From Candidatus Methanoperedens sp. (GTDB lineage: Archaea > Halobacteriota > Methanosarcinia > Methanosarcinales > Methanoperedenaceae), in the NCBI GenBank assembly GCA_027460585.1, contig JAPZAP010000051.1, positions 1 through 35,850 on the forward strand: a stretch of DNA of 35,850 bases, given 5' to 3'. The first letter of the stretch is position 1. Every line of letters starts with the position of its first letter. A program made the position numbers and the translations under genes. The notes under the pieces were generated by a model. It had not been told where the DNA came from, searched no databases, and saw nothing but the letters and a program-made list of their open reading frames with translations. Positions 6,408-13,253 of the stretch are shown here, piece by piece.

Positions 6408-7145
6408 ATGACAGCACATCCAAGCGGCAGAAAATTGGGTATCCATTTGATCCCGGCACCTGATCCTAAAAAATGTGAGGGAATTAAAGTTCTGGGCATA
6501 TCGGGCTCTTCCAGGCAAAGAGCGGGGATAAGCAAATCAGAAAAAGTTTTATTGAAAGCACTTGATATTGCAAAAAGCTATGGGGCAGTAACCAATTTCA
6601 TCCGGTTGCAGGATCTGAAGATTTATTATTGCGAAGGCAATTATTCAACGAATCCGGGTTTTTGCACTTATCCATGCCAGAGTTCAATGAAATATGAAGA
6701 CGACCAGATGCAAATAGTTTATGATGCCATTCTGGAAACCGATGTCATGATCCTGGCTACCCCCATTCGATGGAATAATCATTCTGCGCTCATGCAAACT
6801 TTTATAGAGAGAATGAACTGTATCGAGAATTCAGATGCCTGGTTCGGGAAGCGATTGATCAATAAAAAAGTGGCGGGATTGATAATAATAGGTCACGTTG
6901 ACGGGGTACAGCATGTCGCAGGGAATCTCATGAATTTTCTCAACTGGCTGGGCTTCCATATGCCGCAGGATATGATCGCTTCATGGGTTGGCCCGAACGA
7001 TGAAGATACGACAAAGGATTGGGAAGAAATCCAGGCCAATCCCTATACGCAGGAGGATATTGTGAATATGGTATATAGTGTTCTCAGGCTTGCGTGTAAC
7101 ATAAAAAATAGTGATCAGGAAATTCCTGAGGGAGATACTATTTAA
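6408..7145 (+). CDS. Flavodoxin-fold NAD(P)H-dependent FMN reductase-like protein
   Basis: 245 residues. After a 25-residue leader, KVLGISGSSRQRAGISKSEKVLLKAL is the phosphate-binding first strand/loop of the flavodoxin-like FMN reductase fold. DAILETDVMILATPIRWNNHSALMQTFIERM gives the second flavin loop (ATPxxxxxxSAxMxxFIER). Cysteines C75, C84 and C88 (YYCEGNY, FCTYPCQSS) sit where related iron-sulfur flavoproteins carry a Cys cluster, but the compact CxxCxxC of true Isf is not clear. Probably an FMN-binding reductase; partner and substrate unknown. Last gene of the putative three-gene redox run; the repeat array begins 26 bp after its stop. Confidence 0.85.
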   Translation: MTAHPSGRKLGIHLIPAPDPKKCEGIKVLGISGSSRQRAGISKSEKVLLKALDIAKSYGAVTNFIRLQDLKIYYCEGNYSTNPGFCTYPCQSSMKYEDDQMQIVYDAILETDVMILATPIRWNNHSALMQTFIERMNCIENSDAWFGKRLINKKVAGLIIIGHVDGVQHVAGNLMNFLNWLGFHMPQDMIASWVGPNDEDTTKDWEEIQANPYTQEDIVNMVYSVLRLACNIKNSDQEIPEGDTI

Positions 7146-7171
7146 GAAAGCTTATTTTAATCTATAAAATT

Positions 7172-7422
7172 CCGTTACGGTATTTTTTAGAATATATCCC
7201 GTTACGCAATCAGACAATATAATTTATTTTTAAATATATATTAGTAAAAAATTAAAAATATGTTCAACCTGAATAATTCCGTTACGCAAATAATTGAGTT
7301 AATACCCGTAACGGTATTTATACGGAGATATTCCGTTACGCAATTATCTTATATATTCCCCGTAACGGTATTTATGTCGTTAAATTCCGTTACGCAATTA
7401 TTATATATAATATCCGTAACGG
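7172..7422. repeat. Array of eight CCGTNACGG/C sites at 27-bp steps
   Basis: Sites start at 7172, 7199, 7279, 7306, 7333, 7360, 7387 and 7414. Every step is exactly 27 bp except 7199 to 7279, which is 80 (one less than 3 x 27). The core is an odd-length palindrome, CCGT-N-ACGG. From 7279 onward the sites alternate in orientation: CCGTTACGC then CCGTAACGG, so the true unit is 54 bp, present three times (7277-7330, 7331-7384, 7385-7438). The 18-bp gaps are AT-rich and vary. Neighbouring opposite sites could pair as 8-bp RNA stems. A second array of the same core and spacing lies at 13165-13253. Not a standard CRISPR: the repeat is far too short. Function unknown. Confidence 0.9.
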
Positions 7423-7657
7423 AAATTAAAAATATTATTATTCAAACCTCTTATTTTAATTTATGGCGATAGTTCTATATCGAGTCTTACATTTTATACC
7501 AGGCAATCTCAAAACAATATTTCAAAGAAAAATTCTATTTTGCACATGTGACCAGAGAATTTTTTGAATCAATTGAACTGATCTAATTTTGATGAAAGAT
7601 GGTGTAAAATTTGGGTAAATTCAATGGTTTTTCCCATTAAATCTAGCAATTTACCTT
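7423..7657. other. Gene-free AT-rich stretch, possible decayed coding tail
   Basis: Nothing firmly recognised. One frame is open on the plus strand from about 7469 to a TAA near 7587 and reads YQAISKQYFKEKFYF and VTREFFESIELI, which looks protein-like but has no start. It may be the tail of a lost gene, such as a transposase or restriction-type protein; this is a guess from composition only. Confidence 0.3.
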
Positions 7658-7691
7658 AAAACTGTATATAACAGATATTATATACAGTTTT
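7658..7691. promoter_or_regulatory. Perfect 14-bp inverted repeat before the HNH gene
   Basis: AAAACTGTATATAA (7658-7671) and TTATATACAGTTTT (7678-7691) are exact inverses with a 6-bp loop, CAGATA. It is shaped like a repressor operator with TATA-like sequence inside the arms. It is also followed by two more T, so a terminator is possible. A strong GGAGG and an ATG lie immediately downstream (7694-7706), which argues for an operator/promoter element controlling what follows. Confidence 0.65.
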
Positions 7692-7703
7692 TTGGAGGCA
7701 AAT

Positions 7704-7733
7704 ATGAACCGAAATCTCTATTTGATAGAATAA
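7704..7733 (+). other. Nine-codon mini-ORF with strong Shine-Dalgarno
   Basis: GGAGG at 7694-7698 followed 5 nt later by ATG, then MNRNLYLIE and TAA. It has the best ribosome-binding site of the region but encodes only nine residues, and it ends 14 bp before the HNH start (GTG 7748), which has no SD of its own. It could be a leader peptide that delivers ribosomes to the HNH gene by re-initiation, or the 5' stub of a gene replaced by recombination. Confidence 0.4.
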
Positions 7734-7747
7734 TATTTTAGGCCGAC

Positions 7748-8104
7748 GTGAACAACAAAAAATATATCAGAAAGAAGTATATAACTTGCAGCAGGTGCGG
7801 AAGAAATAAAATCCATCATGCACATGGATTATGCAGTGGATGCTATATGTCCATTAATCGAATAGAACAGATAAAAAAACATAACGCTGAATCATATCAC
7901 AATATTCCCTACGAATTATATCTAAAAATAACAGAAAAATGCTGTATCTGCGGTTTTGATTCTATAGTTGAGCTTCATCATATTGATGAAAACCATGAAA
8001 ATAAATCGTTAAATAACCTTGTTGGCTTATGCCCAAATCATCATGCTATGATTCATCATAGAGATTTCAATACAGAAATAAAAAAATTAATAAATTATAA
8101 GTAG
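7748..8104 (+). CDS. Small HNH endonuclease with N-terminal zinc finger
   Basis: 118 residues from GTG. Residues 14-32 form a four-Cys zinc knuckle (CSRCG ... CSGC). Residues 65-103 are an HNH nuclease: CCIC with C65/C68, VELHHID with H77-H78, N90, then LCPNHHAMIH with C95, H98, H99 and H103. The Cys pairs hold a structural zinc, the HH and the last His bind the catalytic metal. HNH proteins of this size occur as homing or phage-type nucleases and in restriction systems; target unknown. No Shine-Dalgarno; translation may depend on the upstream mini-ORF. GC is low, like the rest of 7146-8750, and unlike flanking housekeeping genes, consistent with acquired DNA. The recombinase gene follows after 37 bp. 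Confidence 0.85.
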   Translation: MNNKKYIRKKYITCSRCGRNKIHHAHGLCSGCYMSINRIEQIKKHNAESYHNIPYELYLKITEKCCICGFDSIVELHHIDENHENKSLNNLVGLCPNHHAMIHHRDFNTEIKKLINYK

Positions 8105-8141
8105 CTTTATATACTTTGAGAAAAATAGTGAAATTGGATTC

Positions 8142-8972
8142 ATGATAGTTGATGAGCGTCTTAAAAAGCTTAATACTGAAGCAAAGTTGAGAGGCTTCTC
8201 ACCACAGACAATAAAAATGTATTTGTTTTATAATGAGAAATTACTTGATTACACAAAAAAGGAACCGGTAGATATCACAGAAGATGACATTAAAGATTTT
8301 CTTGGATACAAACTTTCAGATGATTCGGTTTCAAATGCTACGATAGCACTAATAAAAGCTGCCTTGAAATTTTATTATACAGAACTTCTTGGAAAAAATA
8401 TCTCCCAGATAAAAACTCCAAAGAGGTCACAAAAACTTCCGGTAGTCCTTAGCCAGACTGAAATAAAAAACCTCCTTGATAAAACAGAAAACCTCAAGCA
8501 CAGGCTTATAATTGAACTCCTCTACTCCACGGGTTTAAGACTTTCAGAATGTATTAATCTGAAATACTCTGACCTTGATCTAAATGATGGTATAGGCTGG
8601 GTGCGTTTAGGAAAAGGTTCAAAAGACAGAATTTTTATTATTTCTGATATATTCAAAAAAGATCTCCTCGACTATAAAGAAAAAAATGATTCAGATGGAA
8701 AAGGATACATATTTTTAGTGAATGGTAAAAAAATGACCTATAGAGGTATCCAGCATGCGATCAAAGTTTCCGCCGAGCGCGCAGGCATCGATAAACCTGT
8801 GCATGTACATACGCTTCGGCATTCTTTCGCAACACACCTTCTTGAGAACGGCGTGGACATCAGGAAGATCCAGAAGCTGCTCGGACACTCGAATTTGCAG
8901 ACCACGCAGATCTATACCCAAGTTTCAAATGAAGAAATAAAGAAGATAAAGAGTCCGCTGGATATGCTTTGA
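8142..8972 (+). CDS. Tyrosine recombinase, XerA/XerC-like
   Basis: 276 residues, the size of archaeal XerA. The N-terminal SAM-like core-binding domain is followed by the catalytic domain with a complete set: R133 (STGLRLSE), K158 (GKGSKDR), H223 and R226 (HTLRHSFATH), H249 (LLGHSN) and the nucleophile Y258 (IYTQVS). XerA resolves chromosome dimers at dif; close relatives act as integrases. Context beside an HNH gene and repeats favours a mobile role, but a chromosomal XerA cannot be excluded. Composition is mosaic: I count 85 G+C in the 160 bases 8751-8910 (53%) against 17/60 at 8221-8280 and 20/60 at 8581-8640, so the C-terminal catalytic part appears to have a different history. Confidence 0.92.
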   Translation: MIVDERLKKLNTEAKLRGFSPQTIKMYLFYNEKLLDYTKKEPVDITEDDIKDFLGYKLSDDSVSNATIALIKAALKFYYTELLGKNISQIKTPKRSQKLPVVLSQTEIKNLLDKTENLKHRLIIELLYSTGLRLSECINLKYSDLDLNDGIGWVRLGKGSKDRIFIISDIFKKDLLDYKEKNDSDGKGYIFLVNGKKMTYRGIQHAIKVSAERAGIDKPVHVHTLRHSFATHLLENGVDIRKIQKLLGHSNLQTTQIYTQVSNEEIKKIKSPLDML

Positions 8973-10858: not shown

Positions 10859-11368
10859 TTACCGTACATTCTCGTTCTGATAGACGCCTGAATATCCTTT
10901 CAGGACCTCCTCTCCAAGCCTGAAAAACAAGAGCTGAAGAACACGGGCACCTTTTTTTATCCTGAAACCCTTTTCATTATATACCACAAGAAGGCTCTCG
11001 CTTCTCCCGCTATATCCTGCGTCCCATACAGCAGTTTCCACAGTAACACCGCAGCGAAGAAGGCTTGAGCGCGGTTTTGCGATAGCAGCAATGTTTTTCG
11101 GGATATTGACTATTTCATTGAACACTATCTTGTAACTGCCTTTTGGCAAATGCAGCCATCCATCATCATCAAAATCAAGGTTCTTCGTCTGGGGGAGTTT
11201 TCTTTGTGAATTGTCAAAAGCGATCGCCCCTGAATTTTCATGTGATTCCACCCGCTGCAGGGTCAATTCGACACCGTTTGGCTGAACCTGGATATCCGGG
11301 TCTATCATTTGTTCGACGAGCGGCGGCTTTGCATTTATAAGAGTGATCAATTCGTTATGGGATAACAT
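10859..11368 (-). CDS. dut: dUTP diphosphatase of the archaeal Dcd-like type
   Basis: 169 residues from ATG 11368; an ATG 11 codons upstream (11401) is in frame, but the family begins with MLSxxEL as here. Family marks are DIQVQPNGVELTL, AKPRSSLLRCGVTVETAVWDAGYSGRSE (the nucleotide-binding motif with the catalytic region) and ARVLQLLFF. Dut hydrolyses dUTP to dUMP and pyrophosphate, keeping uracil out of DNA and supplying dUMP for thymidylate. Dcd and Dut are close relatives; the sequence resembles the archaeal dUTPase group rather than dCTP deaminase, but deaminase activity cannot be excluded by eye. Monocistronic by appearance. Confidence 0.85.
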   Translation of the reverse strand: MLSHNELITLINAKPPLVEQMIDPDIQVQPNGVELTLQRVESHENSGAIAFDNSQRKLPQTKNLDFDDDGWLHLPKGSYKIVFNEIVNIPKNIAAIAKPRSSLLRCGVTVETAVWDAGYSGRSESLLVVYNEKGFRIKKGARVLQLLFFRLGEEVLKGYSGVYQNENVR

Positions 11369-11456
11369 GTGTGCAAAATTAGGGGGAGAATGCATAAGCA
11401 TTTGCTGAAAGAAGAATAGACTTTTTTTTTCTTGGTAAAAAAAGAAATTGACATCA

Positions 11457-11642: not shown

Positions 11643-13085
11643 TTATGACGATAGCTTTTGGATCTCTACCATAAGTGGATGCTCTGAAAAATCATCCAGC
11701 GCTATATTAAATTCACAACCAGTATTTAATTTCATTAATTCGATCAAATTTTGAAGCGCCACAGTTAACGATTCATGATCAGGAACGTCACACACCTCAG
11801 CATTCAAAGGATATGTTTCTTTCAGTTCAACCGGATATGGGCCAAATGGCGGTTTAAAATCAAGGACCCAGTCAAATTCATCTTCGTTATCAAGTCTATG
11901 GTTCTTGACAAGAACTTTTCCTTCAAGCTTTAAGTTCTTCAGTCTTTTCCTGTGCCTTATAACCTCAGGCCTCAAAGCTGATTCAGGCCCGCTGTAAAAG
12001 AATGTTGCCCTTGATAAAGGCTGGAATTCTTCGATCCAACCTGAATGTTTTGACAGGGTATGCATGAGTCCTGATAATAATTTGGGATGCCCCCGGCTTC
12101 GATATTCCACAAGTTCCCAGAGGTTTCCCTCATGGATGGCCTGCTTTACTTCCCGTATTTCCTCAAATGTGACATAGAGGTTATGGCTGGCAAGCAATTC
12201 TTCCTTATTATCGCTTTCCATTAATTCACGAACATTATACGAACTGCAAACAGGACAGGAACAGGGTAGGTACTGGAGCTGTTCTAAGTGATAAGTGCCC
12301 CGTGCAGTCATGTATCTTCCGTCCTTGGCGTATAAAGCATAAGATGCGGAATCAAAAAGATCGCACCCCAGAGCCACAGCCAGTGAGAACATCATGGGAT
12401 GCCCTGCCCCGAAAAGATGCACGGGCGCGGCAGGAGAGAGTCCCTTTTTTGATGCAACGATAACGTCAACCAGGTCTGAATACCGATATGATTCCATAAG
12501 AGGAACAACTGCGCCAAGAGGATAAACATCAAAATCAAGCTGGCTCAATTCGCGCGCCGATCTCTCCCTCAGTTCGGGAAATGTGGAACCCTGGACTGGC
12601 GCTGCAAGAAGCATCTCTTTTTTCAATCCCAGAGCCTCTTTTTCCCGCGCAAGCGTCTGTTCAAGTTCAGACTCGGCGCGCGTCCACGAAACATCAGGAG
12701 GCGTTGGTATATCCAGGGGCACGCCGATGTCAGAGCCGATATCCCTCTGGAATTCAACTATCTGTTTATTATTTACTTCAACTTCCCCATAGATCGATAA
12801 CTGATATGAACCTGAGTCGGTCATTATAGGCCCATCAAAACCGATAAGTGAATGCAGCCCCCCCCTAAGGGCGCGCTCCCTGAGTTCTGGTTTGCGGTAA
12901 ATTATGTATGAATTTGTTATTATGACCTGGGCGCCGAATTTTCGAAGTTCAGATGGTTTAATGGTCTGAATATTAGGATTAACAACAGGCATTATAGTTG
13001 GCGTCTCGATTACACCATGTTTAGTTTCAAGCCGTCCGATGCGACCGGCGCAGTCCTTATGAAGAATTTCGAAGATAGGGGGCAT
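11643..13085 (-). CDS. tgtA: Archaeosine tRNA-guanine transglycosylase
   Basis: 480 residues. It exchanges guanine-15 in the D-loop of archaeal tRNAs for preQ0, the first step toward archaeosine. The TIM barrel contains the catalytic-site segment MTDSGSYQ (D90), the second Asp segment near VPLDIPTPPDVSW, and the zinc site C275, C277, C280 (PCSCPVC) with H301. Length is shorter than the 580-residue crenarchaeal/thermococcal form because the C-terminal PUA domain is missing; in methanosarcinal archaea that part is usually on a separate protein (ArcS-like). The 500 bp upstream contains the second 27-bp-period repeat array, starting 80 bp from the ATG. Confidence 0.95.
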   Translation of the reverse strand: MPPIFEILHKDCAGRIGRLETKHGVIETPTIMPVVNPNIQTIKPSELRKFGAQVIITNSYIIYRKPELRERALRGGLHSLIGFDGPIMTDSGSYQLSIYGEVEVNNKQIVEFQRDIGSDIGVPLDIPTPPDVSWTRAESELEQTLAREKEALGLKKEMLLAAPVQGSTFPELRERSARELSQLDFDVYPLGAVVPLMESYRYSDLVDVIVASKKGLSPAAPVHLFGAGHPMMFSLAVALGCDLFDSASYALYAKDGRYMTARGTYHLEQLQYLPCSCPVCSSYNVRELMESDNKEELLASHNLYVTFEEIREVKQAIHEGNLWELVEYRSRGHPKLLSGLMHTLSKHSGWIEEFQPLSRATFFYSGPESALRPEVIRHRKRLKNLKLEGKVLVKNHRLDNEDEFDWVLDFKPPFGPYPVELKETYPLNAEVCDVPDHESLTVALQNLIELMKLNTGCEFNIALDDFSEHPLMVEIQKLSS

Positions 13086-13164: not shown

Positions 13165-13253
13165 CCGTTACGGAAAATCATTTGAAGTTTCCGTTACGGA
13201 ATATTTTATATTTTTTCCCGTGACGGAATTAGTAACTTACTATCCCGTAACGG
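13165..13253. repeat. Second CCGTNACGG array, four sites at 26-27-bp steps
   Basis: CCGTTACGG at 13165 and 13191, CCGTGACGG at 13218, CCGTAACGG at 13245: steps 26, 27, 27. The centre base varies (T, T, G, A), so only the CCGT/ACGG halves are conserved, as expected for a protein-binding palindrome. It lies 80-170 bp upstream of tgtA, and 330-410 bp upstream of tRNA-Ser. Same core and period as the array at 7172-7422. Confidence 0.9.

Follow-up and report, generated by a model that had tools for sequence, protein, structure and literature searches.

Phased palindrome arrays beside a dif-like repeat and a xerA-like gene in Candidatus Methanoperedens

We found that the window (the whole stretch of 35,850 nucleotides analyzed here) carries a gene for a XerA-like recombinase, a dif-like inverted repeat upstream of it and two arrays of short palindromes at steps of about 27 bp, and that such arrays keep company with the dif-like repeat across the genus. 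We suggest that this is a XerA/dif locus, where a putative dimeric protein would fill the arrays cooperatively and form an accessory complex at dif, with further sites at dcd and ubiD acting as operators. Reasoning from sequence, we give this explanation roughly even chances.

Palindrome arrays and a recombinase gene in the window

The features of the window that bear on the argument are as follows.

7172..7422, no strand assigned: array 1, eight CCGTNACGS palindromes in 27-bp steps (one of 80), with dif between the array and xerA
7433..7468, + strand: conserved AT-rich block in the array-dif interval (TATTTTTATTCAAACCTCTTATTTTAATTTATAGCG in relatives), from k-mers and alignment
7661..7688, no strand assigned: dif-like repeat ACTGTATATAA-CAGATA-TTATATACAGT, a perfect inverted repeat with 11-bp arms and a 6-bp center
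7748..8104, + strand: small ORF in the dif-xerA interval, judged HNH-like by eye, with relatives in L057, L066, L073 and L122
8095..8114, + strand: candidate relic of an older dif right half, TTATAAGTAGCTTTATATAC, recognized by eye (compare TTATACGCAGTTTTTATATAC in insert-free loci)
8142..8972, + strand: xerA, tyrosine recombinase of 276 aa (Pfam PF00589, 1.4e-44; PF13495, 1.8e-13)
10859..11401, - strand: dcd, dCTP deaminase-like; preceded by array sites in several relatives, though not directly in the window
11643..13085, - strand: tgtA, TGT family, downstream of array 2
13165..13253, no strand assigned: array 2, four perfect CCGTNACGG in steps of 26/27/27 bp, between tgtA (-) and tRNA-Ser (+)

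The original prediction had placed eight CCGTNACGS palindromes at 7172, 7199, 7279, 7306, 7333, 7360, 7387 and 7414 with 27-bp phasing, and we found all eight there, at steps of 27/80/27/27/27/27/27 bp. Matches to CCGTNACGG with at most one mismatch numbered 18 in the window vs 3.94 ± 1.99 in 100 dinucleotide shuffles (largest value 9). The array 1 region holds eight CGTNACG sites, six with a partner 26-28 bp further on; 2000 shuffles of this region gave at most two sites and one such pair, and no 26-28-bp pair arose in 200 shuffled versions of the whole window. We conclude that array 1 is real and stands far above shuffle expectation. Array 2, with sites starting at 13165, 13191, 13218 and 13245, had been overlooked.

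In the genome to which the window belongs (2.47 Mb, 153 contigs, 84% complete), a pattern for paired sites gave 15 matches, all inside the two arrays, and its reversed control gave nine. Single perfect copies of CCGTNACGG numbered 24, eight of them in the window, vs 38 for the reversed control. Because the single motif is not over-represented genome-wide, what is unusual is its clustering and phasing rather than its count. Across arrays the step was 27 bp in 109/167 cases and 26-28 bp in 133/167. Taking 10.5 bp per turn, distances of 27 and 54 bp come to about 2.6 and 5.1 helical turns, so that alternate sites lie on one face of the DNA.

Two earlier descriptions of the array needed revision. 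The spacers, said to be conserved only in AT-richness, are not so: across 239 array sites from the window's first 20 kb and 31 loci, with both strands read, the consensus reaches about wAATnSCGTNACGSnATTw (T 82% at -6, A+T 97% at -7), the CGTNACG core being invariant because the sites were picked by it. The 54-bp unit proposed from the alternating orientation of the sites is in part, from 7275 on, ordinary tandem repetition (TRF, 78% matches), and spacer identity among its units is 22/36, 16/22 and 15/22. Such repetition does not explain the arrays of other genomes, where the step is kept and the spacers differ.

The palindromes had also been read as a chain of RNA hairpins, and the + strand does outdo 200 shuffles in folding (z -4.4). 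Such pairing is built into any set of copies of one palindrome, however, so this fold is uninformative, and the sites that flank a TATA-like box at ubiD (see below) are more easily understood as sites in DNA. We find the hairpin reading barely credible.

By its domains, the 8142-8972 product has the hallmarks of a XerA, with a predicted Phage_integrase catalytic domain and N-terminal SAM-like domain, and it is closest to known XerA proteins. Its best PDB match is 4a8e (XerC-like, P. abyssi XerA; E 1e-46), and 5hxy, also a XerA, matches at 1.5e-40. Genome G022 has a second xer-like gene (G022:C6:27289-28125), which is 53% identical to the window XerA and lies off the G022 dif locus.

The dif-like repeat

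The repeat at 7661-7688 was traced through k-mers conserved near 27 xer genes; it sits upstream of xer and has the architecture of archaeal dif, with 11-bp inverted arms and a 6-bp center. We infer that it works as dif. A genome-wide search of 60 genomes with a degenerate pattern, several of the assemblies being incomplete, found matches in 27/31 genomes of the genus (own included), 25 of them once, in 2/2 of the sister genus g2 and in 0/27 others (g3 and 26 of other families). The reversed pattern, used as a control, was matched in G014 only. The single match in the window's own genome is the repeat at 7661-7688. Imperfect sites are present in G011 and G023, and the genome-wide search gave no match in G027 or G028. 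Second matches off the xer locus occur at G020:C97:74235-74262 and at G014:C175:5828-5855, the latter with poor arm symmetry; no array was seen at either (for G020, among the matches listed). GC skew along 360 kb of G015:C3 and 240 kb of G022:C15 was uninformative on the position of the terminus.

The arms vary by genome, falling into ACTGC-, ATGTC-, AGTAC- and ACTGTA- types. Both arms change together, mixed sites being found in L057, L062, L068 and L071. Judged by eye, with arm labels typed by hand and row L125 disregarded (its merged tblastn pieces gave a false long branch), the types mostly group on the XerA tree, L056 being an exception. A perfect 11-6-11 repeat, its arms those of the window's dif and its center different, occurs on a viral contig, IMGVR_UViG_3300020171_002226 (L227 1714-1741); it could mark a dif-using virus or be a chance match in so large a collection.

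Two elements border the repeat. The AT-rich block is represented by k-mer TATTTTAATT near 23/27 xer genes and is absent by alignment from L049, L050 and L126; it is possibly a promoter or a second accessory element. On the xerA side, the small ORF at 7748..8104 had no Pfam match. All five loci with this HNH-like ORF (the window, L057, L066, L073 and L122) have ACTGTATATAA on at least one dif arm, an arm also present in L071 and G029, where the ORF was not noted. The candidate dif-half relic follows the ORF in the window, L066 and L057, and the stretch at 7689-8114 of the window is perhaps a small insertion at dif.

Arrays keep company with dif

Pairs of sites were found in 28/30 other genomes of the genus (G001-G030) with a wide-gap pattern, which also yields reversed-control matches (153 forward vs 58 reversed); there were none in G027 (63% complete) or G028 (68% complete). 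In 26 genomes of other families the same pattern gave four forward vs 42 reversed matches, and a narrower-gap pattern gave 41 vs nine in eight genomes. Since many assemblies are fragmented, we put little weight on the absences in G027, G028 and G032. The recurrence of a clustered, phased motif in relatives, which had been proposed as a check, was thus seen and goes beyond a single tandem duplication, a count of the motif alone being insufficient.

We mapped 31 loci (L045-L075) and ten more (L120-L129, labeled genes only), with mechanical ORF calls in the relatives. The maps place arrays around xer as well as at dcd and c5-ubiD: 28 of these 41 regions have dif (two of them imperfect), six lie at ubiD and three at dcd, and four (L046, L053, L121 and L128) at none of these. 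All 41 were fetched via the array, so it is the genome-wide dif search that gives an unbiased test. Of the 29 genomes with a dif match, 27 have an array no more than 431 bp from dif (26/28 loci and G029), the exceptions being G024, whose nearest site is 1441 bp away, and G031 (876 bp), where dif is near a contig end. The distance is 138-176 bp in 19/28 loci and 238 bp in the window; from dif, the nearest array is typically beyond the AT-rich block. Of the 26 loci not cut by a contig end, 22 have array sites on each side of dif within 2 kb. The window has no array beyond xer, its next array being 4.2 kb on. In 360 kb of G015:C3 and 240 kb of G022:C15, every cluster (at least two sites within 60 bp) is within 2.8 kb of dif (2/2 and 4/4, respectively).

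Two side observations concern the ground around dif. In G024 (L057 6899-10755), about 3.8 kb with two ORFs part dif from the array, where G015 has 331 bp; this is possibly an element inserted beside dif. A shared element, TAGTGGGCAGA, followed in several loci by TCTGCCCACTA and GTTCGTATATATACGAAC, lies between the beyond-xer array and ubiD in L126, L127, L073, L074 and L123.

Genome G002 separates the two partners. Its single close xer (79% identity; next match E 2e-7) is on contig C117, in a region (L166, record JAPMTR010000063.1, with array coordinates in that genome the same as in G002) that has no array and no dif-like repeat within about 5 kb. Its dif is on C61 (L070), with a nine-site array 158 bp away. 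Because this dif keeps nine sites away from xer, the arrays go with dif. Four more distant xer loci (L167, L168, L175 and L176; 35-49% identity) have neither arrays nor an 11-6-11 repeat of dif-consensus type; L175 has a 6-bp-spaced repeat of other sequence with one mismatch, and others have repeats with centers of 5, 7 or 8 bp.

These observations bear on the suggestion that the array is a substrate of the nearby recombinase. The link to a recombinase stood, but the substrate is more likely the separate repeat at 7661-7688. Arrays on both sides of xer in most loci, and a xer found elsewhere in one genome, could also point to a recombinase-carrying mobile element of which the arrays are the ends or recombination substrates. 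Array sites are unlike dif and independent of its arm types, however, and the relocated xer took no arrays with it; the 7140-7760 stretch was unmatched in a plasmid collection, and three viral contigs with a three-site pattern proved to hold tandem repeats, in contigs of 55-67% GC without the dif pattern. We regard a mobile element as very improbable. That almost all genomes of the genus have a dense cluster of sites next to dif would also suit a centromere-like or terminus-organizing site (of ParB-, SegB- or MatP-like function) that is at dif by chance, but no partition gene was among the 27 proteins scanned with Pfam, and we hold this to be improbable.

We also considered that the arrays are purely transcriptional operators of a small regulon (xerA, dcd, c5-ubiD, tgtA and neighbors) that clusters round dif by chance, dif being in the xerA leader by ancestry. 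The sites at ubiD speak for it. In 14/17 ubiD upstream regions (exceptions L048, L072 and L075), two sites spaced 22-25 bp flank a TATA-like TTTATATA that lies a short way ahead of the small ORF c5, and the pair is kept where ubiD is on a different contig from dif (G004, G007 and G018) or about 48 kb off (G019); the ubiD of the genome from which the window comes, on contig C26, retains a single site next to the TATA-like box, and the other site has decayed. Many arrays are upstream of some gene, and in seven loci (L049, L050, L058, L059, L062, L068 and L125) the far array is upstream of an ORF that adjoins the xer 3′ end and converges with it. Sites are absent upstream of that ORF in L065 and the window, and lie between the two ends in L067 and L071. 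Against a purely transcriptional role stand the nine sites at the G002 dif without xer, and that genome's xer without any; the two-site array of L071, which separates xer from a nitrate-reductase-delta-like ORF convergent with it; and the nearest array, which remains at dif though the flanking genes differ. Up to nine sites at 27-bp steps are also more than a simple operator needs. We consider operators as the sole function possible but on the unlikely side.

A putative accessory protein and known Xer systems

Among the earlier readings, a cooperative DNA-binding platform is the best, and by analogy we favor one putative protein with two uses, as an accessory factor at dif and at operators nearby. 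ArgR and PepA, which serve plasmid Xer sites, also regulate genes. The binder is most likely a protein other than XerA, because the dif arms differ between genomes while the array sites keep CCGTNACGG. A MarR protein, encoded beside the arrays in three loci, was considered as the binder and rejected, as close relatives occur in only 4/27 genomes of the genus. The analysis turned up no binding protein, a point against the accessory-protein explanation.

Under the accessory-protein explanation, this would be the XerA/dif locus of Methanoperedens and its sister genus, presumably serving chromosome dimer resolution. XerA would bind both 11-bp arms at 7661-7688 and exchange strands across the 6-bp center, like known XerA proteins. 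The CCGTNACGG palindromes at 27-bp steps would be sites for a putative dimeric protein that fills each array cooperatively, and arrays flanking dif-xerA would let it build a defined nucleoprotein complex by folding this region. This complex may control the timing of XerA recombination, or the choice of dif copies, much as accessory sequences do at plasmid cer and psi. The same putative protein would also bind the promoters of dcd and c5-ubiD, whose expression it probably represses or tunes. In a bolder form, which we think rather doubtful, the array-forming protein replaces FtsK, and assemblies on both sides of dif-xerA act as a topological gate for XerA while also regulating dcd and ubiD, linking dimer resolution to the state of the cell.

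Cortez et al. 2010 (PMC2958812), in the parts drawn on here, leave room for a partner that binds dif-flanking sequences. They also report dif recombination in vitro by P. abyssi XerA acting alone, which counts against an accessory complex. For archaeal XerA control without FtsK, the arrays offer conserved candidate sites for such a partner; if the explanation is true, a putative helper protein may control dimer resolution in cells that lack this bacterial control protein. Usable outcomes are a consensus with which to fish for the protein, a defined dif-like repeat for recombination in vitro and, in G002, a natural case of xer separated from dif. A literature search, with most subscription journals and preprints outside its scope, returned nothing on Methanoperedens dif or these arrays among the matches listed.

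We know of no arrays comparable to the CCGTNACGG arrays at XerS/difSL of streptococci and lactococci. That system, as described in the parts of two papers used here, resembles this locus in that a lone recombinase gene adjoins its dif-like site (PMC2958812, PMC2731167), and it depends on FtsK (PMC2958812). XerA/dif of the Thermococcales, according to the main-text parts of Cortez et al. 2010 (PMC2958812), likewise has a single XerA, 11-bp arms, a 6-bp spacer and one site per genome; unlike here, dif is not adjacent to xerA, and those parts mention no multi-copy phased array. In the Sulfolobales dif is near xerA, as in Methanoperedens, but has a 13-bp conserved flanking sequence on one side only (PMC2958812, section 6). 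A likeness in working may be drawn to cer and psi, which in the same account have sites beside the Xer core site that need the partners ArgR or ArcA and PepA (PMC2958812). Those are plasmid sites, whereas the arrays described here are chromosomal, have many copies on both sides of the core site and would be bound by a putative protein.
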